64,000 bases of DNA from Arenicola marina. Lineage: Eukaryota > Annelida > Polychaeta > Arenicolidae. Under the pieces are notes generated by a model that was not told where the DNA came from, searched no databases, and saw only the letters and a program-made list of their open reading frames with translations. Shown one piece after another: positions 693 to 64,000 of this stretch. The translations under genes were made by a program, and so were the position numbers. Numbering within the stretch: the stretch's first letter is position 1; each line of letters begins with the position of its first letter. The DNA lies in NCBI GenBank assembly GCA_964019135.1, contig OZ025252.1, positions 45,792,959 through 45,856,958 of the forward strand. The letters run 5' to 3'.

Positions 693-1039
693 GCTGAACC
701 CACTGTTCGTCGACGATACACGTCATGACCCAACGTAGGCGGTGAATGAGTCGAGTGCAGACGTAAAACAACACATTTGGTGAAACGACCATCCTAACAT
801 TGACGGTTTAACACCAGATCCTTGTTTAACTTGCCAAAGCGGGGACTGTGATATCAGTATTGACACAACCGCCACATAGTTGCCGCCTTTTGCGGCTTGC
901 ACTGAGCTGGTGGAACAGATGTCTCCACAGGAAGCCGCACGGCCATTTCCGCCCTGGGCCGATAACTGTTTATAGATTTAGATGAACAAGAAACTGGTAC
1001 AAATAAATTGAGGCAATCTGTTTCGAGACGGCGAAAACA
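693..1039. other. Unique spacer, no gene seen
   Basis: Non-repetitive spacer between two minisatellites. No splice-flanked conserved exon, RNA gene or transposon end could be recognised. Confidence 0.5.
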
Positions 1040-2190: not shown

Positions 2191-2270
2191 ATTCACACCA
2201 CCCCGTGCAGCACCCTGCACGCCTCGATCACATCCAGTTTATCATACCGGGAGCAATGATCGCAAGCCTC

Positions 2271-2450
2271 TCAGTCCAGCACCCCCCCCCCCTCCAATCT
2301 CTCTCTCTCGCCATTCCCCTCTACTATGTCCCCCCTTTCTATCACTCTCTCCTTACCCCCTCACCCTTGCTTCTCCTCTTCTCCTCTCGCCTGTGCCACA
2401 CACTCGGTTCCGTCTTCCACCTTCCCAACCTCTCCAGAGCTCGCTAGATT
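2271..2450. repeat. Pyrimidine-rich low-complexity tract
   Basis: C/T-rich stretch on the plus strand containing poly-C and CT runs. No ordered unit and no coding signal. Confidence 0.6.
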
Positions 2451-3610
2451 AGCCGCCCGCTCGTGATGTTCCGGGACGCCATCAAATATTTAGGAGCACC
2501 TGGGGCTCTAATCACTGCCAGATTTCTGGCTGTATCCCTCCGCCTAACGGGTCAGGCTCCTGTTACCCACGGACGTGCGGCGACAACAACGTCAAGTTGG
2601 CGTCCCGTCACTAAGCGAAAGAAATTGATGCCCTCCGCGCACAAAAGAGTGTCTCTAATTACTTCATTTAATTACAAAAAAATTATATAACTGGTGAACG
2701 CGTCCTTATCAGGAAGACCTTGTTTCTGGTTTTTTGCGTGGAGCAATATATCTTCGAAGATAGCCAGACGGATTTCACTGTGGAATAGACATCGCACCAC
2801 CCAAAGGGCTCCCATGGTTTCTGTATAAATTATAGTCCTGCTTGTTAGACGTAATCAAGGGAGTTCGCGAGATCACAGTGGCGCCAGCTGGCGAGTACTA
2901 TTTATATGTGACCGTTTCTCCACCTTGCAAGCACTTTTTATTTTCGATATCTCAATCTTAATCCAATGTCAATAATATAGTTATGCAATGCCGCGAACGT
3001 AACAACGCGTGTCCGTGCTTCATGTGCTTTGAAATTGAAATCACGTTGAGCGTTATCAGACAAACGAGACTTCTGGTTACCCTTGACCCTTAACGCCACA
3101 AAATTCGAATCTGTAGAGTACGTGACAATAATGTCCAATACTTTGGAGAAAGCAATAATAATCAAAAGTGATTAAAACTACTGAAAGTGTTTCAAATAAA
3201 GCTTTACTGGGTTACGCCATCCGCAGTATTAAGGACTTGATGATATGTTGAGCGAACAGCAATTACTCAAATGCAAGGATATTAGTTAATAAGTTCACTA
3301 TTTAAGGCGCTGCAAAAGCATAAAAGTCCGAACATTTCGGCCCATCATCAAAAAGGGAACAGCAACGGCGAATCTGCAAGTCTGCAAGCAATCAGCAAAT
3401 GGCTGTGAGCCTGGGGCCGCAGATACCATATCCTGTAACACAGGTGCCACTCGGGCCGCAGATACCCTATCCTGTAACACAGGTGCCAGGTGATTTTTCT
3501 CGCCGGTTCAGTTTCGAATGGCCGCCCCGGGGCTCCGTTCATAAAAGCGCTCTCCACACCAGATGTGGCTGGATGCCGGGGGTAAGGGACAAAGCCTTCG
3601 TCATCTTCAG
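2451..3610. other. Unique intergenic DNA, nothing recognised
   Basis: About 1.1 kb of non-repetitive sequence between arrays. Short open frames occur on both strands but none resembles a known family or is bounded by convincing splice signals. Confidence 0.5.
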
Positions 3611-3611
3611 C

Positions 3612-4882
3612 ACCTCCCACCATCAGCAGCATCATCTATCCCACCCAGGCCATAGCCTCCACCATCAGCGGCATCATCTATCCCACCCAGGCCATAGCCT
3701 CCACCATCAGCAGCATCATCTATCCCACCCAGGCCATAGCCTCCACCATCAGCAGCATCATCTAGCCCACCCAGGCCATAGCCTCCACCATCAGCAGCAT
3801 CATCTATCCCACCCAGGCCATAGCCTCCACCATCAGCAGCATCATCTATCCCACCCAGGCCATAGCCTCCACCATCAGCAGCATCATCTATCCCACCCAG
3901 ACCATCGCCTCCACCATCAGCAGCATCATCTATCCCACCCAGGCCATAGCCTCCACCATCAGCAGCATCATCTATCCCACCCAGGCCATAGCCTCAACCA
4001 TCAGCAGCATCATCTATCCCACCCAGGCCATAGCCTCCACCATCAGCAGCATCATCTATCCCACCAAGGCCATAGCCTCCACCATCAGCAGCATCATCTA
4101 TCCCACCCAGACCATCGCCTCCACCATCAGCAGCATCATCTATCCCACCCAGACCATCGCCTCCACCATCAGCAGCATCATCTATCCCACCCAGGCCATC
4201 GCCTCTACCATCAGCAGCATCATCTATCCCACCAAGGCCATAGCCTCCACCATCAGCAGCATCATCTATCCCACCAAGGCCATCGCCTCTACCATCAGCA
4301 GCATCATCTATCCCACCCAGACCATCGCCTCCACCATCAGCAGCATCATCTACCCCACCCAGGCCATCGCCTCCACCACCAGCAGCATCATCTATCCCAC
4401 CCAGGCCATTGCCTTCACCATTAGCAGCATCATCTATCCCACCAGACCATCGCCTCCACCATCAGCAGCATCATCTATCCCACCAGACCATCGCCTCCAC
4501 CATCAGCAGCATCATCTATCCCACCCAGGCCATCGCCTCCACCATCAGCAGCATCATCTATCCCACCCAGGCCATCGCCTCCACCATCAGCAGCGTCATC
4601 TATCCCACCCAGACCATCGTCTCCACCATCAGCAGCATCATCTATCCCACCCAGACCATCGCCTCCACCATCAGCAGCATCATCTATCCCACCCAGGCCA
4701 TCGCCTCCACCATCAGCAGCGTCATCTATCCCACCCAGACCATCGCCTCCACTATCAGCAGCATCATCTATCCCACCCAGACCATCGCCTCCACCATCAG
4801 CAGCATCATCTTTCCCACCCAGGCCATCGCCTTCACCATCAGCAGCATCCACCACCCAGACCATCGCCTCCACCACCTCGGC
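3612..4882. repeat. Minisatellite, 42-bp unit
   Basis: About 30 tandem copies of a 42-bp (14-codon) unit. On the plus strand a unit reads HHQQHHLSHPGHSL in one frame, and on the minus strand DDAADGGGDGLGGI. Because 42 is a multiple of three, long frames open on both strands. Near 4,440-4,490 two neighbouring units each lack one base (CCCACCAGACC instead of CCCACCCAGACC), which shifts the plus-strand frame. This argues that the array is not under coding constraint. Confidence 0.92.
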
Positions 4883-4994
4883 CGCCTTCCCTCCCATCGT
4901 CTCTGTCACAGATACAGTGGGTTGGACAGTGACACCCGGGGTAGTAGCAATGGACTACGACTCAAAATTAAGTTTTAAAATGCTCAAGTTTCCT

Positions 4995-6098
4995 ATGGGA
5001 GAGTCTCAAATTAAAAGTATGGAGGAGCCTCAATTTCAACCTATGGCAGAGCCTCAAGTTAAAACTATGGCAGAGCCTCAAGTTAAAACTATGGCACAGA
5101 CTCAAGTGAAAGCTATGGCAGAGTCTCAAATTAAAACTATGGAGGAGCCTCAATTTAAACCTATGGCAGAGCCTCAATTTAAACCTATGGCAGAGTCTCA
5201 AGTTAAACCTATGGCAGACCCTCAAGTTAAACCTATGGCAGAGCCTCAAGTTAAAACTATGGCAAAGCCTCAAGTTAAAACTATGGCGGAGCCTCAAGTT
5301 AAACCTATGGCAGAGCCTCAAGTTAAAACTATGGCAGAGCCTCAAGTTAAACCTATGGCAAAGCCTCAAGTTAAACCTATGGCAGAGCCTCAAGTTAAAC
5401 CTATGGCAGAGCCTCAAGTTAAAACTATGGCAGAGCCTCAAGTTAAACCTATGGCAGAGCCTCAAGTTAAACCTATGGCAGAGCCTCAAGTTAAAACTAT
5501 GGCGGAGCTTCAAGTTAAACCTATGGCGGAGCCTCAAGTTAAACCTATGGCAGAGCCTCAAGTTAAACCTATGGCAGAGCCTCAAGTTAAACCTATGGCA
5601 GAGTCTCAAGTTAAACCTATGGCAGAGCCTCAAGTTAAACCTATGGCAGAGCCTCAAGTTAAAACTATGGCAGAGCCTGAAGTTAAAACTATGGCAGAGC
5701 CGCAAGTTAAAACTATGGCGGAGCCTCAAGTTAAACCTATGGCAGAGCCTCAAGTTAAAACTATGGCAAAGCCTCAAGTTAAAACTATGGCGGAGCCTCA
5801 AGTTAAACCTATGGCAGAGCCTCAAGTTAAACCTATGGCAGAGCCTCAAGTTAAACCTATGGCAGAGTCTCAAGTTAAAACTATGGCAGAGCCTCAAGTT
5901 AAACCTATGGCAGAGCCTCAAGTTAAACCTATGGCAGAGCCTGAAGTTAAAACTATGGCAGAACCTCAAGTTAAAACTATGACACAGACTCAAGTGAAAG
6001 CTATGGCAGAGCCTCAAGTTAAAACTATGACACAGACTCAAGTTAAAACTATGGCAGATTCTCAAGTTAAATCTATGGCAGAGCCTCAAGTTAAATCT
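4995..6098. repeat. Minisatellite, 24-bp unit, 46 exact-length copies
   Basis: 1,104 bp, which is exactly 46 x 24. The plus frame reads MAEPQVKP/MAEPQVKT over and over inside an open frame (4,917-6,167, 416 codons) that begins and ends in non-repeat residues. The minus strand is open too (RFNLRLCH-type repeat, 4,968-6,185). Unit differences include both silent (GCA/GCG) and replacement (CCT/ACT, GAG/AAG) changes without clear third-position bias. I therefore favour a non-coding array, although the complete lack of indels is unusual. Confidence 0.88.
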
Positions 6099-6550
6099 AA
6101 ATGTAAAGCCCATAAAGTCTTGGTAATTTGTAGCTTCAAGCCATCTACTGCAATGGTAGCTTTTTAAGTTACGTCGCCGCCGCACTACTGTGGGGCTGAG
6201 GGAGCGGGCAGAGGGGGAGGGGAGGGATCAATGATCTCTCTTCTCGGACATGACGGTCTTGTTGTCATGGGCACCTTGCACTTTGATCGTCTTCTCCCCG
6301 ACGTCCGCAGGGCCCCGACCTGTTTTTCCTTGGTGTTTACTTTCAAGGAGAACTAACAACACCAGTCATTAAACTAACCCAGCAAATATTTGCCGATGAA
6401 AGAGGAATAGCATGTCAGAAGGCGGAACTATATGCCATCGTCGGTCGTATATCACGCGCCCAGTTACATGGTTTCATAGACATATACCTATATATACAGA
6501 AAATCCCTTGGGTTCTGTGGCCTGCGCTCATCAAGGTGGTCTAGCGCTAT
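6099..6550. other. Unique spacer, nothing recognised
   Basis: Spacer between two minisatellites; no gene, RNA or transposon terminus could be supported. Confidence 0.5.
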
Positions 6551-6865
6551 ACGAGGTGTATAGGTGGTGTATAGGTGACGTATAGGAGGTGTATAGGTGG
6601 CGTATAGGAGGTGTATAGGTGGTGTATAAGAGGTGTATAGGAGGTGTATAGACGGTGTATAGGTGGTGTATAAGAGGTGTATAGGTGGTGTATAGGTGGT
6701 GTATAGGTGGCGTATAGGAGGTGTATAGGTGGTGTATAAGAGGTGTATAGGTGGTGTATAGGTGGCGTATAGGAGGCGTATAGGTGTATAGGAGGTGTAT
6801 AGGAGGTGTATAGGAGGTGTATAGGCGGTGTATAGGAGGTGTATAGGAGGTGCATAAGAGGTGGT
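6551..6865. repeat. Minisatellite, about 10-bp unit
   Basis: Tandem copies of GTATAGGTGG/GTATAGGAGG with occasional GTATAAGAGG. The minus strand stays open as YTPPIHLL-type periodic frames. The unit is not a multiple of three, so no coding role is inferred. Confidence 0.9.
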
Positions 6866-6966
6866 GTATAGGTGGTGGTCCCTATCGCACCGCCAGATGC
6901 GAGTCGATCTTTGCCTCCCACTCCCATACACACACTGCTAAAAGTGACCGAACCACGGAATGTGCG

Positions 6967-7972
6967 TCTACACCGTGGAGTGTCAACACCATGGAGTGTC
7001 TACACCATGGAGTGTCTACACCATGGAGTGTCTACACCATGGAGTCTCTACACCATGGAGTGTCTACACCGTGGAGTGTCTACACCGTGGAGTGTCTACA
7101 CCATGGAGTGTCTACACCATGGAGTGTCTACACCATGGAGTCTCTACACCATGGAGTGTCTACACCGTGGAGTGTCTACACCGTGGAGTGTCTACACCAT
7201 TGAGTGTCTACACCGTGGAGTGTCTACACCATGGAGTGTCTACACCGTGGGGTGTCTACACCATGGAGTGTCTACACCATGGAGTGTCTACGCCATAGTG
7301 TCAACACCATGGAGTGTCTACACCATGGAATGTTTACACCATGGAGAGCCATGGAGTGTCTACGCCATGGAGTGTCTACGCCATAGAGTGTCTACGCCAT
7401 GGAGTGTCTACACCATGGAGTGTCTACGATATAATGTCTACGCCATGGAGTGTCAACGCCATAGAGTGTCTTTGCCATAGTGTCTACGCCATAGTGTCTA
7501 CGCCATGGAGTGTCTACGCCATGGAGTGTCTACACCATGAAGTGTCTACGATATAGTGTCTACGCCATGGAGTGTCAACGCCATAGAGTGTCTACGCCAT
7601 AGTGTCTACGCCATGGAGTGTCAACACCATAGAGTGTCTACGCCATGGAGTGTCTACGCCATAGAGTGTCTACGTCATGGAGTGTCTACACCATGGAGTG
7701 TCTACGATATAGTGTCTACGCCATGGAGTGTCAACGCCATAGAGTGTCTACGCCATAGTGTCTACGCCAGTGTCTACGCCATGGAGTGTCAACACCATAG
7801 AGTGTCTACGCCATAGAGTGTCTACGCCATGGAGTGTCTACACCATGGAGTGTCTACGATATAGTGTCTACGCCATAGTGTCTACGCCATGGAGTGTCTA
7901 CGCCATGGAGTGTCTACGCCATGGAGTGTCTACACCATGGAGAGTCCACACCATAGAGTGTCCACACCACAC
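6967..7972. repeat. Minisatellite, 16-bp unit, about 60 copies
   Basis: Array of ACACCATGGAGTGTCT. The first third is mostly ACACC units; the remainder mixes ACGCCATGG, ACGCCATAG and a shorter ACGATATAGTGTCT variant, with CAACACC units interspersed. Several overlapping plus-strand frames arise from the 16-bp period. Many units contain CCATGG. Variant types cluster, which suggests higher-order block duplication. Confidence 0.92.
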
Positions 7973-22560: not shown

Positions 22561-22631
22561 GTTTACACGATTTCGTCGTGTTTTAACTATTTGTTTTGTG
22601 ATTAAGGGAGCCGCCTTTATAAGCATACAAA

Positions 22632-25600
22632 ATGCGTTCTATACTTTGGCTGATAGCCGTGATAGTATGCGCATCGGCCGAGAGAGAACGTGTTGGAGCT
22701 AACACTAAAGAAGCGACCGACAACCTCAGTCGAAAGTTATGGGTTGAATTAAAAAAGCGGCTTCAAGATGATTATGGCATGAACGTTAATGACTTGGATG
22801 CATTGGACGGCGTGGCAGATCCTCAATGTGACACTGATATTACTAATAGATCAATTATCAGCACACATGAATCTATCAAGAATGGTGCTCTTTACATTGA
22901 TTCACCATCTGTCAGCGATAAAGAAGAATGTATTCATCAGTGTTGTAGCCAAGAAAACTGTAACATAGCAGTTTACAAGGACAAGGTTAGTTCTCTCCAA
23001 AAAATCTGTAGTGTAATGGATGGACCTGCCACAATTTCTGAAATTTTTAGCTGGCGAAGAAAAGGTGTTCCGTGTATATACAGATCTAAACTAACGCCAA
23101 TCAAATAGGTTGCTGCATTTGAAGTAGCAATTTTACGATTCATGATTTTCTTCCAAAGAAAAGGCCCTTTTTGGTCGGTAAACATGTTTATCTGCATGCT
23201 GTTTTTTACATAATTTTTTTTTTTAGAATTAAGATGATATGATATAATTTTTTTTTTACAGGACGACCATGTATGTTATCTTTTTGATTGTGGAACTCCC
23301 AGTGTGTGTATTTTCACACCCCATCCTGAGTTTTCCATCATACATTTACCACTTCGGCAAACTGGTGACAAGAGGTTGCAGAAGCATGAAGACGACCTTG
23401 CAAATCTTATCACTGATCCACCAACTTCGACCTCCAGTATGGTAACTACCACTACTACACAAGTTCCAAGTGTTGCAGTCCCTGGTAAGTAAACCTAATG
23501 GACAATATATAAAGCGTAACTATTATTTAATATTTGATATCTTGAGAACTATTTTATGGATATCACAAGAAATATTGTGTGACTGATTGATTGACAATAC
23601 AGTAGTCATGCATTATTACACCTCAATTATACTACCTGTAGGGGAGCAGGACAACTACCCCTTGGATAATTCCTCCCCTGCCAGTTCCACCCCCCCCCCC
23701 CCCAGACCATTCACCCCAGGATACCTCCCCCCCCCCCCCTCTGGGCTCGCGCTAGGATATTTTTTCATTAGCCAATTTGGCTCATTCTGTGGAAAAACAT
23801 TAGCCAAAATTAGCCAAATATTTGTTCGAGGATTTTCTGGTTCCATTTGTTGAAAAAAACATGAATAAAAATGTGTTTGTAGTTGAAATTTTATATTTGC
23901 CATTTTGGCGAGTGTCCAGGAAGTTCTTATTGCCAAATCCCGAATTTTCTCGCCAAATGGCTATTGGCGAATGATAACGCGAGCCCAGCCCCTGATGATT
24001 CCCCCCTGACAATTCCCCCCCCAGGACAATTCCCATCTGGACAACTCCCACCCAGACAACTCCCCTTAGGAAAACTCCCCCCTCCCCCCCCCAGACAGCT
24101 CCCCCCCCCTCCAGACAACTCCTCCTCAACTATTCCCTCTGACTATACCCCCCTGGACAATTTTTACAACTCTTCCCCTGTAAGTTTCCCCTGAGACCAT
24201 TTCCCCTAGAATACCCCCCCCCCCCTCCCCCATCCCCCTGGACACTTCTCTCCCATGAGAACTTCCTCAGGGCAATTGCCACTCAGAAACCCCCCTTTAA
24301 CCCCACCCCAGACAAATTAGCTTTGAGGCAATCCCCCGGCCCCTCCCCTGACAAATCCACTCCAAGCGTGCACTTGATCCCGGACGATAGCTACCCCCTG
24401 GAAACACCCACCCACAAACAGACCAGCGCCCCCTCCATCCCCCATCCACATTATTTAGTTTGGATTTAGCTTGTTGAGACAGCATTCCTCAGTGTGTATG
24501 AAAATATAATATGAAACATGCACATCTACAGTGCAACCTAACTGGTTATAGAACAGACAGCGCCACGCTTCTTCACACACTTAACACACTCTTGGTGGTC
24601 CGGAGTTGGGGTTTGACCGGTGGGGATTGTCTGGGGGAGAAGGGGGTGGGCCTTCTCCGTTTGGAAAGATGTGTGTGGCAATCTCTGGGAAATTTGTTGT
24701 TTGTTTTGGCTAGTGTTGTTTAGAATAACAGGGTTATAGATATCTTTCTAGTAATTGAAACCTACTCAATATTATATAACACATTTCATCTTCATTATTG
24801 GATATACTGCTAGGCCAATCATGTATATAGGCCAGTAGCCTGCTTTTTATTTGTCATTGTGTATCACTATGTGTCATTCTATTCTTTTGATATCATTATT
24901 TCTAGTCTCTCTATATGAAGAATGCACAAGCCATAAAGATTGTGCTGGCAGCCTCACCATTTGTTTAACTGGACACTGTGTATGCAAGCAAGGCTATCAT
25001 GCACAGGAAGGAAGCTGCAGTAAGTATTTTAGGACAATGTGTATATTTAAAGCCAGAGCAATCAGAGTTTTAGTGGAATTTACCCTTTAAATTCGATTGT
25101 AAAACCCTATATATATATTACTGGTAGTAGGGATCTGGATGGGTAACTGGTGACATTGCAGTTTATAAAAAAAATGATGCCTGACATTAGCATACATATT
25201 CAGACATTGTTACAGTTTCACAAAAATTCTGACAGCGACGTCATTATTCCACATGGAAATGGACAGTGAGCACTGTAAATGTTGAAAAATGGACACTGAC
25301 CACACTACCGGTCGATGCCACTACCAGACCCCTATAAGATACTGGTAACATGATGGCACAATTGGGTTTTTCTGTATCAGTGAAAACATTATAGCTAGGT
25401 TAATAATTATTGATCAATGACATATTTCAATAATCTCATATACGTCTACACCAATACTTTACAGGAAAAGATTGCACAAACTTCGAATTTGAATGTGCCA
25501 ATGAAGGGAAGCCAATGTCCTACCCACAGTGCATTGCCATTTATGATCGCTGTGACGGTATTCAGCATTGTGGTGATGGGTCAGATGAAAGGAGATGTGA

Positions 25601-28600
25601 CGGTAAGTTTATTGGCGTTTCTGCAAAGCAGATTAATGGCTTTTTTTATACGTTGGCTTTCTCATTTCAATCTGCAGATGATAACAATTGCTTGAAGTTC
25701 TTTAGGGATGGATCTGGTGTTTATATCCAGATAGTATGGTGTCAGGTACTGGCATAGGTCTGTTTGGCTTATGGTGCTATATTTTACCATATTTGCTGGT
25801 TAGGTTTTGCAGAACCTAGGTCTGATTTCTGTTACAATTTCTGTCCCTGGGAGTAATATTCTTCTATGAAAGTGTATTGTACAGTATTTTTGGGTGAGAG
25901 AAATAGTGAGAGGCATAGAATGGCTTGGGTATCTTTTTGTTCTTGGTGTTATCTAATGTCATTATTGGTGTAGGTTTCTATTTAATATGTTTATTTGTAA
26001 AGATAATGATGTGTGGTTTATCAGGTCATATATTATAGCACTAAGTGTTACTAAATTTGCTGTACTAGTACACATATATCAAAGCCTCCTCATTAATGGG
26101 AATTAACTTGCCTCTTTTCTTGGAATGCCTGTCATTGACTTTGGTCTGTAACCTGACACTGATTGTCGTGGGTCACAGAGTATCAGGCTCCCGGTCAGCA
26201 GCCAGCCATGTATTCTCCGGCCCTGGGTCAGGCCGCCTTCCCAGCCCCTGCCCAGATGCAGCCCCAGCGTCAGCCCACTCAGCTACAACAACAGCCCCAA
26301 CCCCAGCCTCCTCCTCAACTCCAGGCCCAACTGACACAACAGCAAGCCCTGTCCCAGTCGCCGTTGTCACCTCAGTCGCAATCGCAGCTGCCTCAACACT
26401 TAGTACCCCAACAGCCGCAGCCCGTACGGCAGCCAGAACCTATCCCCCAGTCTCAGCGACCTATCCCAAACTCCCCAACCCTCCCCCAGTCCCAGCCCGC
26501 CCCCGGACCGCCTCGACAAGCGCTCGGACCACCAGCGGACGAGCCCCAGGAGCCAGCACAGCAGGAACCGCAATCTGGGTTTGTCCGCGGCTCGTATCAG
26601 CAACAGCTGCAGTCTCTGCAGCCCCAGAATCAGCCGCCCCAGAATCAGCCGCCCCAGAATCAGCCGCCCCAGTATCAGCCGCCCCAGTATCAGCCGCCCC
26701 AGTCGTATGGTCAGCTCATCCAGTCGTACGGCCAGGCGAGCGTGCCGCAGGCCGGGGACCCGCGTGGCAGCCTGCAGCAGAATGTCCCATATGGCCAACA
26801 GCCCACGGCAGACTTGCAGCAGTATGGTATGTGGCAACAGCAACAGCAACAGCAACAGCAACCACCGCGGCAGACCGGCTCCTACCCGAGTCAGAACTAT
26901 GACAGTCCACAGCAGCCGATGAGCCAGTCTCCGCCCCAGCTACAACCCCGACCCGAAGCCCTCCCTCAGTCGCCATCCGAGCCCGGACCCCGTCAGCCAG
27001 GGGCGGGGGATGCACATCCCCGCACGTACGACCCACGTCCTGTACAGCAGCAGGACTCGGCGGCGAACTGGCCCCAGCACGGCCCGCAAGCAACTAAACC
27101 CCGGGGCGGGATGGAGGAAGGCACGATGCACAGCGTCAATGCGGGATTTAATCCTGATGGGAGCTCCCAGGTGCCGCAATACCCAGCCACACCAGGGAGA
27201 CAAGGTCAACAACCGTTTGTAAGCAAGGGCGGCCAAGCCGGCGCGCCGTCGTACGAATTCCAGCCACCACCTCGGCCTGACCAAAGCCGTAAGATCCCTA
27301 CTGGGCTACCCGCACCCGGAGATAATCCCTCTCCCCCCAACAACGGCAATACCCAGTACAAGGCTCTAACAGAGGCCGGTACCCATTCCGAGCAGCAGCA
27401 GCAGCAGCAGCAGCAGAATGGCGCGAAACTGTCGCAGTCCGGATATATTCCCGCGCAAACCGCGACGTCAGGCAGAAGACCTGATGAAAATGGCCCCACC
27501 ACTCCTTCACAGAAGGGTACTAAAGATACTCTCGACCACAGCGCTAAAAGCAAGCCCTCTGCGGGTGACGATTACAGAACAGATGGCAGCACACAAAGTG
27601 GGAAAGGCACGGGCTACGCCAACACTAGAAACAGACAGGGCTACCCGAACTCAAACTATGGCGGTTACTTTAACACCAATGGCGTTTATGACGACTACAA
27701 TAACGACTTTGGATTTAGAGGTAAATACCTTGGCAATCAGGACGGCAACAACAACCGCGGAGGCAACGGTTACTATGGCAACGATGGTTATTACAAGAAC
27801 ACGTACCCGTCGGAGAGGCGCCCGCCAGGTGGCGCTCACTACTTGGACTACGAACAGTACTTTGATCGCGGAGACGGCCGTCTGTTCGGAGGTTTTGGCG
27901 CCAACCAAGACTACGATTACTATGCAGACTCCGCAGGTACCCGGTGGACGTTGTCAGTATTTGTTGTCCACTCATTAGGTCGTTTAAACGTTTATTCTTT
28001 TTCGGTGAATTTCTGTAGTTCTGTCAATAAATATTTGTTCGATGTGCCTGTTTTTACTCTATTTAGCTACATGTATATCTGTTATGGGTTTATATCTCTA
28101 AGGCGTGTGACATGTTGAAACATTTATTCTTTTAGTAGTTTGTTATGTTAATGCCAATCATATCAATTGTGTAGAATATGTCTTAGAAAAAGGGATTATA
28201 AGCAAAATAATTTTCGCATTCATGGTGTGATATTTTAATGGAAATGTTTAGACATTATGCAATCATTTTTTCTTTTTTGCTCTGCCTTTTTGTGTCTTCG
28301 TAAGTGTCTTCAAGGAATACCTCTCGGTTGAATGATCTTACGTTTAGTTCGTTCAGTTTTGTGATGTTGTGTTTGGCGAGATTTTGATAGTCTTAAAACT
28401 TGTTTTCCAGGAAAAAAGGTCTCTAGCAAATCTTTCTGATGAGACCAGATGAATAATGTTTACAGTAGAACGCCTGTATTATGCCTTTATCACAATAAGA
28501 TTTCGGTGAAAAGTGGGTGTTTTACTGTACATGCCATGTCATGTGGGGGCCGGCGCGATAGATTAGTGGGTTAGAGCGCTCGCATTGAGTGCTCTGGCCA

Positions 28601-31255
28601 TCTTAGAGCCTAACGGCACGTGGATCGATGGTTTGAGCCCTGCTGTGGCTATGTCTGTGTGGTCGCAGGATAAAGATCCCATGTCTTTCTTCGTAAAGAG
28701 TAGGGGGTTACCCCCGGGGACATGGCTCCTCTCTCTCTTCTTTCTCCCATTGACGCGATATGACCAAAAGTGGTTAAAGCGTCCTGAATAACCAACCAAC
28801 CATGTCATGTGAATATCACTTCTACAGGCTTTGCGTTCGTATCATTTGTGCTTCGTATGTATGTTGGTATGTTGTTATGTAGTTTCATTATATAATTTAA
28901 ATCCATCAAACTATACTTCTTCGTTTCCCGCAAGGGATGCACCAATCTAAGGTACTTTAGTAACATTAGTAACCGTGCACACTACATATTAGTATTAAGC
29001 ATTCAGGACTTAAGGATGTAACAACCTTACAGTAACTTTGAACTCCGTTGAAATAATCTGTGACCATTGTTCTGTCAGTTCTCTGTAACTTACGGTTGTT
29101 TACATAATTGTATCTATTATGATTTCACAAAAGACTAGCGAAGAGTTTTTTTTGTTATGAGTATTATCTGTTACACACATTTCCCGTTTTGATGTACAGA
29201 TAAGAAAGAAGACGCTTCGAAAGTAGCTGAGGACGGTGAGTGCCTTGCTGCTGGTTCTGTTTGGATGTTCGCTGCGACGGGGAATTCATGAATTTTAGGG
29301 GTCGAAACAAATCGTATAATGCAGAAAAATAATAGAAAGAAATAATACTGAACTGACATGATTTTGTAAAGTACGTTTTGCTGGTTTTAGGGGATGATTC
29401 GTCTGCACGAGTGGTTCACGACGATGAAGTGGCTGGTAAACCTGGAAAGCAGGCCCCCGGTGAGTGGCAATATCACTATGACAATATGCAGGACGCTGTC
29501 ACACCACAGGACAGTCACACCACAGGACACTGGCGCATCACAGGACAGTTACACCACAGGACACTGGCGCATCTCCGGAAACTGTCACACCACATGACAC
29601 TGTCACACCACAGGACAGCCACACTACAGGACAGTCACACTACACGACACTGTCACACCACAGGACACTGTCACACCACAGGACAGCCACACTACAGGAC
29701 AGTCACACTACACGACACTGTCACACCACAGGACAGTGTCACACCACAGGACAGTCACACCACAGGACGCTGTCACACCACATGACACTGTCACACCACA
29801 GGACAGTCACACCACATGACACTGTCACACCACAGGACGCTGTCACACCACAGGACACTGTCACACCACAGGACGCTGTCACACCACAGGACGCTGTCAC
29901 ACCACAGGACAGTCACACCACAGGACGCTGTCACACCACATGACACTGTCACACCACAGGACAGTGTCACTACAGCACAGTCACACCACAGGACACTGTC
30001 AGACCACAGGACACTGTCAGACCACAGGACACTGTCAGACCACAGGACACTGTCACACCACAGGACGCTGTCACACCACATGACACTGACACCACAGCAC
30101 AGTCACAATACAGGACACTGTCAGACCACAGGACACTGTCAGACCACAGGACACTGTCAGACCACAGGACACTGTCAGACAACAGGACACTGTCAGACCA
30201 CAGGACACTGTCAGACCACAGGACACTGTCAAACCACAGGACACTGTCAGACCACAGGACACTGTCAGACCACAGGACACTGTCACACCACAGGACACTG
30301 TCAGACCACAGGACACTGTCAGACCACAGGACACTGTCACACCACAGGACACTGTCAGACCACAGGACACTGTCAGGACACAGGACACTGTCAGACCACA
30401 GGACACTGTTACACCATAGGACACTGTCAGACCACAGGATACACAGCTTCACACTGCGCTTTTGTGTTTCTCATTTTCTTTACATTTAGATGACTGCTGA
30501 TTACAATGACGGTTCTGCTTTCAGACAACGGGAAGCCAGTTTTTAGCGAAGACCAAAGGCCCATTGCTGATGGCGGGAAGGATGGCGGTCGGTTGGGTAC
30601 GGGGCAGCATCTTGGTGGGGAGGACGCATTTGGCGGTGATCACATGACTCACGGAAATGGCGTCAGCATGGCAGGTACTGACGGTGACGATGACGTCAGC
30701 ATGGGCGGCAGTCACGGTGATAATGACGTCAGCAAGGGAGATGGTCATAGTGATAACGACGACAGCAAAATCGGCGGCGATGACGCGGACCATGCTGAGA
30801 GCCAACCAACAAAGCTGTCAGATTCAGACAGGCAATCAGAGGACACGGCTGGCAGTGACGTCAGCAGTGACGCCAGCAGCAGTCAGCAGGTTGAGGAGGA
30901 GGCGGCGAAGGGTGGAGATGAGACGGAGGAGGGCGAACAGATACCGGCCTCGACAGGCGACGACAGCGGCGCGGCCGGAAAAGCCAAAGTGGTTGTCCTG
31001 AGCAACCAGCATGGCGATGACCAGGCGGTTATCAACAAAGCAGAGGAGCAAGTGGGCGAGGCGGACACGGAATCCGCCGGGTTTTACCAGGCCAACAAGG
31101 GTGCCGTGGTAGCGCTGTCCCTGGGCCTGGCGCTCACCGCTATGCTTCTAGTCTTCGTCGGCTGCCGGCTGAAAAACGTGCGACGACACGTGCGTAGGGG
31201 ACGCCCGCTCACCTCGAACGAAGCAGACTACCTGGTCAATGGTATGTACCTGTAG
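22632..31255 (+). CDS. MANSC-EGF-LDLa single-pass membrane protein, LRP11-like
   Basis: Eight coding exons: 22632-22985, 23262-23484, 24906-25019, 25465-25602, 26179-27936, 29200-29235, 29391-29459, 30525-31255. The frame is continuous across all joins (first junction phase 0, the rest phase 1), giving 1,140 residues. The protein starts with a signal peptide (MRSILWLIAVIVCASA). A MANSC domain follows, with Cys pattern EECIHQCC..NC and CYLFDCGTPSVC, split between exons 1 and 2. Then come a Thr/Ser stalk, an EGF-like module (exon 3), an LDLa module ending DRCDGIQHCGDGSDERRC (exon 4), a 586-residue Q/P-rich then Y/G/N-rich segment (exon 5), acidic linkers, one hydrophobic span (about AVVALSLGLALTAMLLVFVG), a basic stop-transfer stretch and a short tail ending NGMYL. 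MANSC plus LDLa plus one span fits LRP11; SPINT1 is excluded by the lack of Kunitz domains. I see no PKD domain. Ligand and function are unknown. Confidence 0.85.
23680..24440. repeat. C-rich degenerate repeat in intron 2
   Basis: Intron sequence dominated by poly-C and a loose CCCCCAGACAACTCCC-type unit, interrupted by the MITE at 23,741-23,988. Open frames here are compositional artefacts. Confidence 0.7.
23741..23988. mobile_element. Short inverted-repeat element in intron 2
   Basis: Ends CTGGGCTCGCG and CGCGAGCCCAG are inverted, and imperfect complementarity continues inward (TTAGCCAATTTGGC near the left, GCCAAATGGCTATTGGCG near the right). About 248 bp, non-coding. Probably a MITE inserted in the C-rich tract. 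Confidence 0.7.
25128..25337. mobile_element. MITE family with TAGGGGTCTGG ends, copy in intron 3
   Basis: Starts TAGGGATCTGG and ends CCAGACCCCTATA, with internal TGTTGAAAAATGGACACTG. The same end motif and the TTTTGAAAAATCGACACTGG-like core recur at 46,514-46,848 and 61,585-61,655, so this is a dispersed family. Non-coding. Confidence 0.65.
28546..28799 (+). mobile_element. tRNA-derived SINE with 12-bp target duplication
   Basis: Flanked by CCATGTCATGTG on both sides (28,534-28,545 and 28,800-28,811). The 5' end has an A-box-like TAGATTAGTGGG (about 28,560) and a B-box-like GGTTTGAGCCC (about 28,630), the internal Pol III promoter of tRNA-derived SINEs. The 3' body contains GACGCGATATGACC and ends in (ACCA)n. 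It lies in intron 5 of the LRP11-like gene, in the sense orientation. Related fragments are at 11,646 and 61,013. Confidence 0.88.
29483..30445. repeat. Minisatellite filling intron 7, 18-bp unit
   Basis: About 960 bp of GGACACTGTCAGACCACA units with ACACCACA, GACGCTG and short AGTCACACC variants. The left half is mixed and the right half nearly homogeneous. It occupies about 90% of the 1,065-bp intron between exons at 29,459 and 30,525 of the LRP11-like gene. Open frames on both strands come from the 18-bp period. Confidence 0.92.
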
Positions 31256-54670: not shown

Positions 54671-57600
54671 TCAGACGGGACACCCTTTCTCTCGGCTCTG
54701 CATTGTAATACGTGTCGCGTCCTGCGGCGGTGGTCGCGTGCGACTAGCGTCTCTCCGGCGTTTCATTATCTTGTAAATCAGCCAATCGAGGACTTCGACG
54801 ACGCTGAGTGCACTTGCACCCAGAAACAGACCCATATATCCACCGAGGTCGCCTGCAGAAAACGCGATGAAGGAGCATGTCAATTGACAGTTTCTTCGCT
54901 GTTTCAAAAAAAGTTAGGGTAATTCTCGTCGTGTTATCTTGATCTTGATTATCCGTTTGCTTTATGGTTGTTTTAGCGTTACTTTATTGTCGGGTTAAAA
55001 CATGTTAAGTAGGGTCACAACCAATAGGCTTTTATGAAATATGGGTAACATGGGTAACTGATCGAACTATTTACCTCCAAAGTCGGGCAGATCGTATGCA
55101 ACCGTCTGCGTGATTTTCTCCTCTTGCAGCTGGGAGAAGTAGACATCTAATCTCAAAATATTCCGCCTGGAATGAAATCACAGATTAAGTTCTGCTCACA
55201 ACGTTCCTTCATACCTTTACAGGCCCCTTTACAGGGCCACGTTGTCGTCATTCATGAATTTTACATTTTCCGTCTGTTCCTTGCTGATGCGTTATTGTCT
55301 TTTGGTATCTGACCGATCTGTGCGTAAATACTTTAAAGCAGCCTACTTACATGCGCCATCTTAGATGTTTTACATTTTAGTATCAAGGCTATAATATCTC
55401 AAAATTATGATGCATATATGTTTTATATCTCGTTGAGTCTCTAAAACAACAATTTCAACGTAAAACTCCGCGGACTAGTTTATCGCGCGCGGACGTCCTA
55501 GCGAGCCGCGGTCGACATCACACAGAATACCGAACAGCGAACAGGCGCGCAGGGATGTAAAGCAGGCCACCAACTTCTGCTCCGGTGAACAAATTTGCTT
55601 TTCTCTGGATAGCCCACAGGCTTTCAGGATTTAAATTCAAGACAAAATATACTTGTTTGACACGGAGAAGAGATATAATATAATATGAAGATTACAGAAT
55701 ATATTTGCTTTAATTTTACTGGGCGTTGATATTTAGAAGTTATTCGTGATGGCTCTATTCTAGCCAATCATATATTTCCACATTGGAAAACCAACGTAGA
55801 CACGGCATGAAGAGTTATTTGTGGGCGTGTGACATATCCACTTAACACGCTCCAACCCTCCAATGGGAGAGCAATTTCTACCTTCTTCCTGTCGGGGCCC
55901 TTTGTATTATTTTATGAGTTACCACAAAAGACATAACTAATATGCCACTCTCACCGTAAATTTGTGTATAATTTGTACTATGAATGCACAGTTTTCGTAG
56001 TTGAGATGAAAACAAAGAGTGTCAAGCGAAGATGAATGAAATAGATAATATCGTCTTCTGCTATGCTGATAATAAACAGATCTCGCATTTACCTGACAAA
56101 CTCGACGTCGATTTGTGCGGCATCGTGAAAACGACGAAGATTTCCCTGTAAGTCTTCGAAGCTGTCTTCTAGCTGCAGTCTTTGCTTTAGAAGGAAAGAC
56201 TGAAAAGCGTCCATCTCTAGCGAGAGGCCTCTGAAGAAGTCTTCAAGTATGTTCTGCAAGGTAAATAGAATGTCTCACAGGGCGATTCCCCCTAAACAAC
56301 ACCATGAGCCCCCTCCCCGCCCCCCTCCTCGAGCAACGCCTCTGAATTCTGCATGAATTCTGCATAGACAACAACAACAAGATTTCGCTAACTAGCCTCC
56401 AAGGCGGCCCTCGACAAGTGAAAGCAAATGCATGCCTTCACAAACATTAAGGCCTTAAACACAGTCACGTAAATATGTAAGGATGCATGAAGGATATTGA
56501 CCTTACCTGGATGCGTTCCTGTCCGTTTGTTTTGAGAAATGACGCCACGTTGGGTATTGTGACGTCACCGTAGTAAGTGTTCTGCCTGGGAATGACGCGC
56601 TCAGCACTGTCGAGGTTAGCGACAGGCTCTCGCCAGAGGTACAATGCCTTGGCTCTATCAGTAAAGATGCCACGTGCCTCCGGTTGGCTGAAGTACTCTC
56701 CTAGTTCTATGACGTCATGGAGCCCTGTCATATACGCCGTCAACAGAGTATCCTTGAGTTCATCAAACTTACTGAGCCTCGGCGCCACATATGACCGCTC
56801 CAAGTGGCCCTCAATGTCTCGAAAGAGGCTCCAGAAGGTCTGATTCACTCGCTCACTCAGGGTTAACTCCATTTCCAGCTTCGTCATTTCTAACGAGGAG
56901 TATTTACGGTAAACGTCTTTGATTTCGCGTCGTAACATTTTTATTTCATTCAGTGGTTTATCGATATACCGGCCTGTCAGTTTCTTGAAATGGATGTCAC
57001 CCTTGATGTTGTTTCTGTTAGTTTCAACCGTCTGGAGAAATGTACTGTAGGAAGACAAGCACTTAATTAAGCTTTCTATGTTGTCTTGATATTGCAAAAT
57101 GAATTCATTTGTGTACATTAAATTACTCATATAGCTGGATGACACGTTGTCAATATTTATGTTGGAAGTGGCGTTATGCAGCTCGAAAGCCGTTATCAAG
57201 TGTTCTCCCATTGCCGGATCCGATGTTGTTCCCTCCACTACTTCATCGCTTGCGTTTGCTAATCTTTCATTCTCAGTGTTCTTTTGATCCAAAAAAGTCC
57301 TTAAAAGGCCTGTCACGTTCGAGCGAATAAAGTCTACAATGCTATCGTCATACTCTTGCCACCATGCACGCGAGCACGCTTCTCGTGGCCCTTTGCCGTG
57401 GACAAGAGTCGCCGGCAACTCTACGGCCGCCATCGCGTGTTCACACACATGGGATGCATCGATGAAGCCTGATGTCAAAAACACAATATGTAAAAGTTCT
57501 GTAGAATTTCCTACCGCAGCTTCTAAGTCCGTCAAGCCGATGTCGACTTGACGTAATGTCTCCAGCGCGTCGTTCGCGTCGCCATACAGCAAGACAATCT

Positions 57601-60109
57601 TGAGGGTGCGGAGCTTCACTTGTGACACGATGTCAATAACATCTCGAAGAATGGTCACCAGCGTCTCGCGATCCAGCGCAAGGTTAGTTTTGTAGGCTTG
57701 CTGGTAGACATCAATGTCAGCGTACAAAGAAGCCATATCTTGCTCCACTCTAGATAACAATACGGCCACAGCGCTGTCGATTCTCTTGAAGAGCGACGTC
57801 TTTTTGGAGGAGACGGTGAACGTCAGCAACTTGTCGATATCCTTCAACGAGTCCTCCACGGCAATGATCTGGTTGAGAACATCCGGTAGATATCTTCCGG
57901 TGACCCGCTGTTTCACCTCCTGCGCCTCTTGATAGCGCCCCTTAAGTGTCTCCAGGTTCGCTCCCTCGAAGTAGCTGACCACCGCTTCGGACAGCGGGGT
58001 AGTGGACAGGTCATGTCGGTACACAGTCGTGCTACAGGCGCCGACACACCTTTCTCTGTCCTCCCTTGGTAGCTTAGTTCCTGGAGCAGCGGCTTCTGGG
58101 GCGATCGCTTCATCTGATTAAGAGACGCAGCATACTTTCAACGTTAAAACCATATTCTCCCGCTCTCCAGCACGATCGGATGTAAGGAGACTCCAGCGTT
58201 TGCTAATTGTACTCTCCCTAAATTGAAGAGGCTACTTTGGATGAGTTACATTTTAAATGAGTGTATTCTCTTTTCTTGCAATGTGGGCACTCTTCAAAGC
58301 AGTACAGTATGGGTGGCACACAGAAGACTTTTTTTTCTTTGACAAAAATATACATTTTGTTTCCTCGCCTCCCGAAGGGGTTCACCTCAAAAAATTCACA
58401 TTGGAATCCTGATATTACCTTGTATTACGCATGACAAATATGACTTCATGTCACATTCTGGTTCGTCCCCTGAAACGAAATTAGTTAAAAGTGAACCGTA
58501 GCCATGAATACTATTCGAACCCATTTGAAGCGATAAGCCGGACGAGAGCGGTAAGGAAATGTCACCGCAATGTGGCGCCATCCCCGATGCGACGACCACC
58601 TGGGCCCCAAAGCCCATGCCTTTTCTTTAAAAACATGTTTATTTTACTAGGTTTTGGAAAGACATATATGCCACGAGTTGCCATTCAAACTTTTGGAGTA
58701 GGTCATGGCAAGCCATCTGGGTTATAATTTAGAAAAAAACTCCTAGTTCGTTAAATAATTTTCTCTCTATTTTATTTTCGTACCGGCATTTTTTAATTTT
58801 TTTTACTATATTTTGCACGGTTGCGTTTGGTGAGAGAAGAGCAGATCATATACCCGACCATTCATGTGAATGTCTTCACAGTGACACCGCCGTTCCAGAG
58901 CTTCAATCTCACGTTGTCTGATACAACGAGAGTACGTGTAACTCTCGTTGCGGAAATGCGAGAGGTCTTTGGTTCCACATGTGCCGTAAGGTGGAGAAAG
59001 AAAGTTCATCTGTTCAAAGCATAAAGACATAATTGGGACCCCTCATCATTATAGCAAGCATGTCATAGTTCTCACATAGGAATTGTCACACGATAAAATG
59101 GGCAAGTGAATAAAAAACTTAGTTTTGACGAAGACGGTAGGTGGTCGCATAACACAGGTCATCGCGGAATACAGGTGGTTGCGGAATACAAGTAGCCATT
59201 GAATCGCGGTTATAAAATAATAATAATATTTGATAAAAAAAGATACATGTTTGGATTATTCTATAATTCTGTAAAACATGACCCGGTTGATGCGGTTTGA
59301 CTGGTGGATCGGAGTGACATTGTGGGTACGTACGTTACTGAGTGCCAGACTGGCGAGCATATGTCGTCCCGGGCCTAGATTAAAGCCGAGGTTCTTCATC
59401 AAGGGAACGTCATCTTGTTCGTGAAATAACACCTAAATGACAGAAAAAACATTTCGACTCAAAGTGACCAGCAAAAAAGTGGCGCCCAAATGAGCTTGTT
59501 AATTACGAGTTAATCTATGATCACATTCACCGGCGTCAGACCTTGGTTGTAAAATACCATGCTCATGACAATTGGGCCATTTAGCGTAAAATTATCGTAA
59601 TAATCCATTACGCTGTTGCCTACTATAAATTACGATTTCCCTTTAGATATGCGTAAATGGTTCATATAATATTAGCTAGATTAGCTTGATTAGCTAAAGG
59701 TTTTATTGCTTTTCATGCACAGGAAGTCTCGAACGAGCACGAAATGTACTAAAACCATAAAGCATGATTCTGGATGTAACATGGATACTGATACTGATAA
59801 ATGTATATATATATATAATATTCTATCACGAGAAACAAGATGCAGCCATGCCTAGCGCAAAAGAACGGTATAATTGTGCCAATACCTTGACTCCGGATAC
59901 GGGAGCCATACCAGGGATGTACTCGTAGTCCTCGATGTCCATCCATAACTGAAGTCCAGAATAAGCTCCTTTAAACCAAGGAGACGGTACATATATAAAC
60001 AACGGTTAGAAACGTGGGAAGGAGAGGGAAATTATCAACGCACCGGTGGGAAATGGGGCAGGGAGACGGGAAATACATAAACACCAGCGGGAAACTTTGC
60101 AGGGAGACG

Positions 60110-60142
<33 letters not shown>

Positions 60143-60771
60143 GCGGCGAGAAAAGTGGGAGGGGGACGGGAATTATATAAACACAGGTGGGGAACGAGGC
60201 TGGGAGAGGCAAATATATAAACACAGGTAGGACATGTGGCAGCGAGGCAGGAAATATGTTCAAATATTACCAGAAAAGTTCAAAATAATATGATACAACT
60301 ATGATTTGCCATACACTTTGGCGCACACATCGTGGAAAAAAGAAGGCCCCGGTAGAACAGAGGCTGGAATCTCACCAGTGGATGTGGCTTGGAGGGGAGC
60401 GTGCTTGTCGCCGTTAAATGTAAAACACCTCCCCATATCGGTAATTGTCTCCATGATCTTACCACTGCACGATGAATCAGCCCACCGGCAACTTACAAAC
60501 ATAAAATAAAGAAGCAGCGTCATATCCACATCAATGAAACAACCCTTTGTGATTAGAATGTCAACAGGAGACACACAAAGTTGAATCTATGTTTGTATAA
60601 TATACGCAAACATAATTGAATACACTATTCATACGGTGTCCTTTTACTTGATGTATGCGGTAACTTAGACTTTTACATTTTATTTTCCGTGAGTGCTATA
60701 CCACTAAATAACTCACGATAGAATTGTTTCTCCCGACACCGTCTTGGAAATGTTCGAAAGGCTACTGTCAC
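54671..60771 (-). CDS. DEG/ENaC/ASIC-family sodium channel with giant pre-TM2 insertion, 5' end missing
   Basis: Minus-strand exons in order: 60717-60771, 60376-60491, 59886-59968, 59334-59432, 58859-59009, 58419-58469, 56507-58113, 56093-56253, 55075-55166, 54671-54852. All junctions are GT/AG and phase-consistent, giving 865 residues from the first exon listed. Family landmarks are ILSCRWADSSCSGK with MGRCFTFNGD (finger), LQLWMDIEDYEY, LFHEQDDVPLMKNLGFNLGP, FLSPPYGTC, SRCIRQREIEALERRCHCED, EPECDMKSYLSC, CVGACSTTVYRHDLS, NILRLDVYFSQLQEEKITQT, and TM2 with GGYMGLFLGASALSVVEVLD. These proteins are trimeric cation channels of the plasma membrane. An insertion of about 570 residues separates RHDLS from NILRLDVYF, a gap of some 25 residues in ASICs. 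TM1 and the N-terminus are not in these exons. The ligand or stimulus cannot be inferred. Confidence 0.9.
56507..58113 (-). CDS. Insertion exon of the channel (536 codons)
   Basis: One 1,607-bp exon, acceptor CAG|ATGAAG in phase 1 and donor CAG|GTAAGG in phase 0, open throughout. It starts with the last channel cysteine pair (CVGACS) and RHDLS, then enters sequence with no similarity to ASICs. The insert is rich in charged and leucine residues and looks helical or coiled-coil. It has at least five N-glycosylation sequons (NSTE, NVTG, NATS, NVSS, NQTF), consistent with an extracellular location, and three cysteines. Two stretches beginning TGRYLPDVLNQI (about 57,901) and TGRYIDKPLNEI (about 56,970) look like an internal duplication. 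Near its end VTIPNVASFLKTN resembles the ASIC segment that normally follows the CxxxC strand. The adjoining 161-bp exon (56,093-56,253) continues the helical sequence. Confidence 0.85.
60014..60250. repeat. Tandem repeat with TA microsatellite in a channel intron
   Basis: Four to five diverged copies of a unit of about 45 bp (GGGAGACGGGAAATACATAA, then ACACCRGYGGGAAAC), interrupted by a TA dinucleotide run at about 60,111-60,142. Confidence 0.75.
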
Positions 60772-62462: not shown

Positions 62463-62825
62463 CAGCTTGAGAGATGAGATATTCCCACGATTGGCGGTCA
62501 AGCCAAGCGCCGATATCTTCATCCTGTGGTGAGTCTTCCATCCACTTGGCAAGCATAAAGCGGTCGAGATGGACATCAGGTACTCTGAGCTGGGCAGCTG
62601 AAGTCGGCCTTGTGAATAGACCAACATCCGTGGAAGTGCCTTCGTAATCTGGACCACTGAAGACGACTCCATGCACGATGGAGGGAGTAGTTTCAGTGAC
62701 AGCACGGAGATATATAGTGGCCGCATCACTCACAATGTCGTCATCCGCCGTCATCGTTGCACTTTCGACGCCGCTGAGGATGCTCATGGTGACACTCGCC
62801 TTGCTACCGGCGGCAGGAGTGCCAT
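62463..62825 (-). CDS. Exon of an extracellular module of unknown type
   Basis: 363 bp, phase 1 at both ends (TACAG|ATGG acceptor, CTG|GTAAGG donor), open for 121 codons starting DGTPAAGSKASVTMSILSGV and ending SWEYLISQAG. I do not recognise the domain. The symmetric phase-1 boundaries are typical of shuffled extracellular modules. It follows the MAM exon in the same orientation and its donor phase fits the first recognised channel exon (60,717-60,771). Confidence 0.65.
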
Positions 62826-63021: not shown

Positions 63022-63354
63022 CTGTCTGTGGGCATGGATCCTGGTCTATCTTAATGTCGTCTATGGCTATTACTCCAGGGCCACCAGCAGCGATGACCAT
63101 CAACGGATACTGTCCAGGCGGCAAAATCACCGCCATGTCCGACCACTTATACGGCTGAACGAACTCCGAAGCCATATAGAAGTGGATGCTAATGGTCTCT
63201 TCAGCGAGAATGTGTACAAACAAATGACATTCTGTGCAGAATATCTTATAGCGTAGACACGACCCTTCCGGAACTGATTGACTGATGCTTTCCATCCAGG
63301 AGAAGGTGTACGACGGCGTCGCCACCTGCATGTGGCAATCACCGGTGGCGCCAT
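63022..63354 (-). CDS. MAM-domain exon, possibly part of the channel gene
   Basis: 333 bp, phase 1 at both ends. The translation runs DGATGDCHMQVATPSYTFSW through SCLRYKIFCTECHLFVHILA to VILPPGQYPLMVIAAGGPGV and IAIDDIKIDQDPC. The second half matches the MAM fold signature (C-L-x-F/Y-x-Y/I, W...V.LP.G.Y.l, IAIDDI.l...C). MAM domains are extracellular adhesion modules. Whether it belongs to a separate gene whose 3' end I cannot see or to the channel downstream is open; phase, strand and the absence of a stop exon favour a single gene. Confidence 0.75.
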
Positions 63355-63984: not shown

Positions 63985-64000
63985 CGCATGCCCGCACCCA
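63985..64000 (-). CDS. Partial exon at the window edge
   Basis: Only the last 16 bases are visible, ending at a strong donor (GCATGCG|GTAAGT). In phase 1 it would read WVRAC and then join the MAM exon's DGATGDC. Coding status is an inference from splice strength and phase. Confidence 0.4.

Follow-up and report, generated by a model that had tools for sequence, protein, structure and literature searches.

The annelid Arenicola marina carries a gene for a DEG/ENaC-type channel whose predicted ectodomain is enlarged at two places, by a chain of eight extracellular modules in the finger domain and by a block of 554 residues in the knuckle. The gene lies on the minus strand of contig C5 (genome assembly of 867 Mb in 762 contigs) and is partly contained in the 64,000-bp stretch C5:45792959-45856958, referred to below as the window. 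An earlier reading of the letters of this window (the original prediction) had described a DEG/ENaC channel with a long extracellular insertion before the second transmembrane segment (TM2). We found that the insert is real and old, and, as far as can be judged from the sequences, the gene belongs to a clustered, expanded family.

Gene model and domain order

Within the window, twelve exons between positions 54671 and 63354 of the minus strand are bordered by AG acceptors and GT donors and have matching phases, in agreement with the phase-consistent introns of the original prediction, whose named exons were all present. The assignment to the DEG/ENaC channels was confirmed by the spliced product, which matched PF00858 in Pfam with an expectation value (E) of 2.7e-46 and ASIC1 structures among the PDB chains with an E of about 1e-33. 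The alignment with ASIC1 is bipartite, with query residues 247-446 aligned to chain residues 180-381 and query residues 995-1061 to chain residues 402-467.

To obtain the remainder of the gene, we read 30 kb past the upper end of the window and searched for the first transmembrane segment (TM1) with a profile made from the genome's own channels. The TM1 exon was located within L010:5425-5697 (PF00858 E 7.1e-12), and further exons contain the N-terminal HG motif (ETTWHGVKF) and, more upstream, the ATG. The full model is in phase from ATG to stop and comprises 30 exons and 2,113 predicted residues, with one GC donor. Between TM1 and the window, the in-phase exons encode the finger helix alpha-1, a PAN-like module, a MAM domain (three exons), a Kringle, an LDLa and a second MAM domain (two exons), followed by the first part of a third MAM domain, a CUB domain (two exons), the rest of this MAM domain (two exons) and the first exon of the last MAM domain. 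The protein order is HG motif, TM1, alpha-1, PAN-like, MAM, Kringle, LDLa, MAM, CUB-interrupted MAM, MAM, the rest of the finger, palm/thumb, the 554-residue knuckle block, beta-11/12 and TM2, so that TM1 and TM2 (the latter in exon E12) flank one large ectodomain. As the module chain follows alpha-1, it represents an insertion of eight modules into the finger. The original prediction had placed all DEG/ENaC landmarks in the window; the exons it described are real, but TM1 and the HG motif are situated some 15-20 kb past the window end. The span it gave covers about 40% of the coding sequence and leaves out the upstream module chain, of which the window holds the last MAM domain only.

In the assembled part from ATG to thumb, Pfam matches above the cut-off were obtained for ASC (E 1.8e-45), MAM (1.1e-33 for the whole protein, four stretches), CUB (5.1e-15), Kringle (3.6e-9) and LDLa (9.9e-6). 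PAN_1 reached an E of 3.1e-4 on its exon alone (21.0 bits, cut-off 21.4) and was absent from the matches of the assembled protein. Of the three exons attributed to the first MAM domain, two had no Pfam match of their own. The intron between MAM and Kringle contains, at L010:1-2331 (C5:45866959-45869289), frames that by eye resemble a THAP/Harbinger-type transposase and a fragment of a reverse transcriptase, a possible reason for its length.

The exons within the window can be followed from the last MAM domain to the stop codon. The exon for the N-terminal part of this domain ends at 63985..64000 (phase 1, donor GTAAGT) and runs beyond the window to C5:45857038. The exon for the C-terminal part follows at 63022..63354 (phase 1-1); its stop-to-stop frame matched MAM with an E of 0.037, below the cut-off. 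E2 (62463..62825), which links the MAM domain to the finger domain and has copies beside paralogs, the finger-domain exon E3 (60717..60771) and the 51-bp thumb exon E8 (58419..58469) were placed by splice borders and phase. Splice borders together with the ASIC1 alignment identified E4 (60376..60464), which contains GRCFTFN as the counterpart of GKCYTFN in ASIC1, the palm/beta-ball exons E5 (59886..59968) and E6 (59334..59432), the thumb exon E7 (58859..59009) with PYGTC, the 92-bp exon E11 (55075..55166) for beta-11/beta-12 with NILRLDVYF, and E12 (54671..54852). For E7 (elsewhere in the genome) and E12, copies lend further support. E12 encodes TM2 with a filter of the G-x-S type (GLFLGASAL, with the GAS motif) and a short cytosolic tail ending with TGA. 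The knuckle insert is shared by two exons: exon 9 (56507..58113; 1,607 bp, 535 codons) encodes the thumb end, beta-10 and most of the insert, and exon 10 (56093..56253; 161 bp) its final 53-54 residues. Exon 10 is supported by splice borders and genomic copies, and open frames similar to it by eye are present at two further loci (L032, L034).

The knuckle insert

The gap between RHDLS and NILRLDVYF comprises 554 residues, compared to 26 (381-406) in the ASIC1 chain. The insertion originally put at about 570 residues, against about 25 in ASICs, is thus genuine and in-frame. In canonical single-exon channels of the same genome, the gap has 46-56 residues (seven of eight channels, L002 being left out). 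The location proposed for the insert, the palm/wrist beside the gate, had to be corrected. The distal end of beta-10 connects to the knuckle (PMC9052164), and residues K384, K388, K392, K396 and E403 of human ASIC1a are described as belonging to the knuckle, which is situated at the top of the palm (PMC12658276). As the insert follows beta-10 and takes the place of the stretch matching ASIC1a K384-E403 (residue numbers as mapped in this analysis), its place is the knuckle, at the upper end of the ectodomain, and not the wrist.

Besides its splice borders, several observations show that exon 9 is protein-coding. Its open frame has 535 codons; when the exon was shuffled 2,000 times under a first-order Markov model, the longest open run was 254 codons. 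Thirteen near-full-length copies, including that of the window, are free of stop codons, and their ratio of nonsynonymous to synonymous substitution rates (dN/dS) has a pairwise median of 0.41 (range 0.19-0.59; 77 of 78 pairs, the 78th being nearly identical), which argues that the exon has been kept as protein. Codon usage was uninformative (-0.009 in the true frame, -0.043 and -0.005 in the others). Skipping of exon 9 (1,607 = 2 mod 3) or of exons 9 and 10 (1,768 = 1 mod 3) would shift the frame and remove beta-10, and therefore no ordinary channel would be formed from such transcripts. A nested gene as the source of exon 9, an alternative named in the original prediction, is contradicted by the thumb cysteines and beta-10, which share its frame.

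For the make-up of the insert, we aligned 15 of 16 copies of exon 9, 13 of them near and three distant; L019 was left out because it is almost identical to L018. The expected glycosylation is in line with six N-glycosylation motifs in the window copy, and two sequons are kept in 12 of the 15 aligned copies, namely every aligned C5 copy but none of the three distant copies. All 15 share two invariant cysteines, at exon residues 246 and 351, which flank a gap-rich, length-variable stretch. Pooled over nine chosen pairs, dN/dS was 0.15-0.38 at both ends of exon 9 and 0.49-0.89 in codons 121-320, with the highest window (codons 161-200) just before the length-variable stretch. The helical module proposed earlier received weak support, from an amphipathic-helix signal (p<0.05 in 9 of 35 windows) and from a low-confidence structural model. 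From these features we infer that the insert forms a helical stalk with a disulfide-bracketed, glycosylated and fast-evolving outer part.

No known family fitted the insert. In Pfam nothing exceeded the cut-off, the coiled-coil look-alikes Wtap and TACC_C remaining below it, and a profile search of the PDB gave one match with an E of 0.4. A search of a large protein database with the part from the insert to the C terminus retrieved no homologue; as the conserved channel core was also without a match, usable animal channels are probably missing from this database, and the absence is uninformative. When the two halves of the insert were compared with each other, the score was 67, compared to 36.1 +/- 5.5 for shuffled sequences and reached by none of 500 shuffles; profile-versus-profile comparisons in three paralog sets gave P values of 0.055, 0.12 and 0.26, and an internal duplication is not claimed.

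A clustered family of paralogs

Exon 9 has 37 matches in the genome. The thirteen near-full-length copies cover 525-535 of 535 residues and are all located on C5, where they form one cluster at 35.6-36.1 Mb and another at 45.8-46.1 Mb; the twelve besides the window's are 56-89% identical to it. The remaining matches on C5 are partial or broken, and distant relatives on contigs C14, C3 and C19 show 23-37% identity in the matched stretches and 18-30% in the alignment. In one comparison, of the window copy with that at C5:46059818-46061416 (L014), the synonymous rate (dS) was 0.08 over codons 401-500 and 0.52-0.72 in the four preceding 100-codon windows, a pattern expected from gene conversion between copies.

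To see whether exon 9 is accompanied by the other parts of the gene, we grouped the matches on C5 to exon 9, to the part from last MAM to TM2, to the module chain and to PF00858 by strand and distance. A new gene was begun wherever the order broke, so that the order within a group is partly a matter of construction; complete sets emerged all the same. Of 21 groups, 18 (including the window's) contained the last MAM exon, exon 9 and TM2, and in all 18 exon 9 stood between thumb exon and TM2, an order that the grouping itself assumes. Exon 9 was full in 13 of these sets and in pieces in five. The second MAM domain was matched in all 18 sets, PAN in 13, the Kringle in nine, TM1 in four (counting the window's, which was found by the separate upstream reading) and the CUB and third-MAM exons in two; at least one upstream module was present in each of the 13 sets with a full exon 9. 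As the module searches score best candidates only, an unmatched module is not evidence of its loss. The other three groups consisted of PAN and MAM only (37.10 Mb) and, in two cases, of a lone exon 9 fragment. Identity to the window gene was 65-94% for the PAN, Kringle and second-MAM exons, 52-89% for the last MAM exon and 43-82% for E2.

The distant relatives were read on a smaller scale, with 10 kb on the upstream side of the C19 copy, ending at its MAM exon, and 5-5.5 kb around one copy each on C3 and C14. In the C19 relative, whose exon 9 is about 20% identical, frames matching MAM (1.2e-6) and CUB (9.8e-4, just under the cut-off) lie upstream, followed by the channel core, exon 9, an exon-10-like exon, the beta-11 exon and TM2. 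The presence of the MAM-CUB-core-insert layout in such a distant relative indicates that it is old. In the C3 copy (L033:965-3289; open frame of 775 residues), the length-variable loop of exon 9 contains a long Ser/Tyr/Pro repeat.

Counted exon by exon, the genome has at least 100 PF00858 matches among the matches listed, and further DEG/ENaC clusters on C6 (8.4-8.8 Mb) and C13 (10.6-11.2 and 24.4-24.7 Mb) point to a large repertoire. The same family search in 14 control genomes gave one match over the cut-off, in Thermotoga maritima.

Two observations concern other parts of the window. On the plus strand, open frames at 22623-31255 suggest a membrane protein with a signal peptide, a cysteine-rich N-terminal domain, a Gln/Pro-rich stretch and one membrane span. 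Long repeats of the minisatellite type at 854-7480 and 29357-30493 give rise to overlapping spurious open frames.

Proposed function and known systems

For two additions in finger and knuckle, the most plausible reading is a device that binds partners and is coupled to gating. We consider it about even (probability roughly 0.5) that the protein is an adhesion or ligand receptor fused to a sodium channel and coupled to it via finger and knuckle, and not a proton sensor of the ASIC1a type. The module chain is predicted to bind matrix or cell-surface or secreted proteins. The finger and the knuckle, which carry the additions, contact each other across the subunit boundary at the outer top corner of the trimer, where the knuckle block, as a stalk with a glycosylated and fast-evolving outer part, would enlarge the contact surface. 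A pull or a ligand-induced displacement might then be passed from the finger-knuckle hinge via the thumb and the lower palm to the pore. Findings reported for related channels are compatible with this proposal: in FaNaC, FMRFamide binds between finger helices and the alpha-6 of the neighbouring subunit (PMC11026163), the shear response of alpha-ENaC depends on N-glycan sites in palm and knuckle, and glycans added to delta-ENaC work through the matrix (PMC7958617). More tentatively, this may be a large family of receptor-channels whose expansion is still going on; binding of the shuffled adhesion modules and the diversifying knuckle stalk to matrix, cells or foreign surfaces would then gate a sodium pore directly.

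Gating by protons as in ASIC1a is unlikely. The gene model contains no histidine between TM1 and FPAVTICN, the segment into which the wrist histidine H73 of ASIC1a presumably falls. The proton-sensor residues named for ASIC1a are H73, K211, E242, E375, E413 and E418 (PMC12658276). By alignment, with numbers mapped in this analysis, K211, K374, E375 and E413 correspond to S, H, D and S, and E418 is kept, so that four of five checked positions differ and the channel does not carry the full ASIC proton-sensor set.

Several points weigh against the receptor-channel proposal. The alpha-6 of FaNaC is described as relatively static during gating (PMC11026163), and the knuckle may therefore be an anchor and not a lever. 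The module chain might also act as a passive spacer. For exon 9, AlphaFold on the single sequence gave a poor, mostly helical model (mean predicted local distance difference test score 35.4). A CUB domain between two halves of one MAM domain is odd and could reflect alternative exon choice. Because exon 9 is in pieces in five of 18 sets, some copies may be pseudogenes or misassembled, and as the exchange of E375 for D is conservative, a loss of proton sensing is unproven.

Among the other explanations, we regard it as rather unlikely that the copies are diversified receptors for self/non-self, gametes or microbes which signal by depolarisation. This would fit the eighteen gene-like sets in two clusters on one contig, the elevated pooled dN/dS of codons 121-320 relative to the flanks, two single-pair 100-codon windows above 1 (2.02 and 1.02) and the long low-complexity stretches in the length-variable loop of the C3 and C19 copies. 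However, pooled dN/dS exceeded 1 in no window, the pairs are non-independent, and relaxed constraint would fit equally. The conservation of the PAN, Kringle and second-MAM exons also speaks against such diversification, a point tempered by the last MAM exon and E2, which are no more conserved than exon 9. Somewhat less probable still is a protease-controlled channel, in which the modules would dock proteases and cleavage in the finger modules would lift inhibition, as for the GRIP domain of ENaC. Kringle and PAN occur in plasminogen and HGF, and LDLa, CUB and MAM in enteropeptidase, all of them trypsin-like protease systems, and the ENaC GRIP domains are located after alpha-1. The position of the module chain is comparable to theirs. 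The GRIP domains are protease-sensitive (PMC7413742), and the Kringle part of the module chain matches chains of plasminogen, HGF and prothrombin; yet these module types are frequent in many adhesion proteins, the CUB part best matches procollagen C-endopeptidase enhancer, cubilin and neuropilin, and the knuckle block is left unexplained.

We consider it improbable that both additions merely extend or shield the channel, serve trafficking or limit its assembly partners without a role in gating. ENaC assembly is shaped by finger and alpha-6 contacts in the finger/knuckle region (PMC7413742), and the fast evolution of the middle of the insert would agree with such a passive element, whereas its retention in copies just 18-30% identical in exon 9, the two invariant cysteines and the MAM and CUB-like parts upstream in C19, the one distant copy read on that side, would not. 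An origin of exon 9 or of the module exons from another gene, or from a retained intron, is very improbable. Although the splice sites were deduced from sequence alone, the frame continues from the thumb into the insert, the dN/dS of 0.41 indicates constraint, the exon set recurs in 18 sets, and three other sets have TM1 matches in the same orientation as the modules and upstream of them.

The stimuli sensed by DEG/ENaC channels include protons, peptides, proteases and force. For the question of how partners outside the cell influence the ectodomain, a natural family that has binding modules in the finger and a large block in the knuckle provides a direct test case of gating by tethers or ligands. 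It also suggests a route from ion channels to adhesion-type receptors, with many copies in one genome.

By sequence, ASIC1 is the best structural relative of the core, with which it shares palm, thumb, beta-11/12 and the GAS motif of TM2. It differs in length (527-531 residues for the longer chains, compared to 2,113), in the knuckle gap, in the eight modules present in the finger here and in K211, K374, E375 and E413, which are replaced. A finger insert is present here as in GRIP-bearing ENaC. GRIP is a small domain and not a series of shuffled MAM, CUB, Kringle, LDLa or PAN modules, we know of no ENaC with a large knuckle block, and the peptide pocket of FaNaC, which is not known to have added modules, is built from normal domains. 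The likeness to ENaC lies in its extra protease-sensitive GRIP domain by the finger and in the knuckle alpha-6 that touches the neighbouring finger (PMC7413742), and that to FaNaC in the finger/knuckle corner as ligand site (PMC11026163).

Among the top-ranked papers, which included few subscription journals, we found no DEG/ENaC channel with MAM, Kringle, CUB, LDLa or PAN domains, no paper combining ENaC, "MAM domain" and "sodium channel", and no large knuckle insertion, also not in lancelet or other deuterostome channels; unnamed predicted proteins of this kind may exist in databases. The original statement that no described member with such an insertion was known agrees with these papers for an insert of this size, but shorter knuckle insertions are described in the TadNaCs of Trichoplax (PMC6827283). 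These are predicted loops, in contrast to the 554-residue block, and the available text of that report does not mention a module chain (PMC6827283). EGAS of Caenorhabditis elegans likewise joins a DEG/ENaC channel to extracellular modules ("EGF plus ASC domain"), which by name are EGF modules, and its current in oocytes is given as indistinguishable from controls (PMC10424705). The A. marina channel is strongly unusual, its precedents being the knuckle loops of the TadNaCs and the EGF-bearing EGAS proteins.

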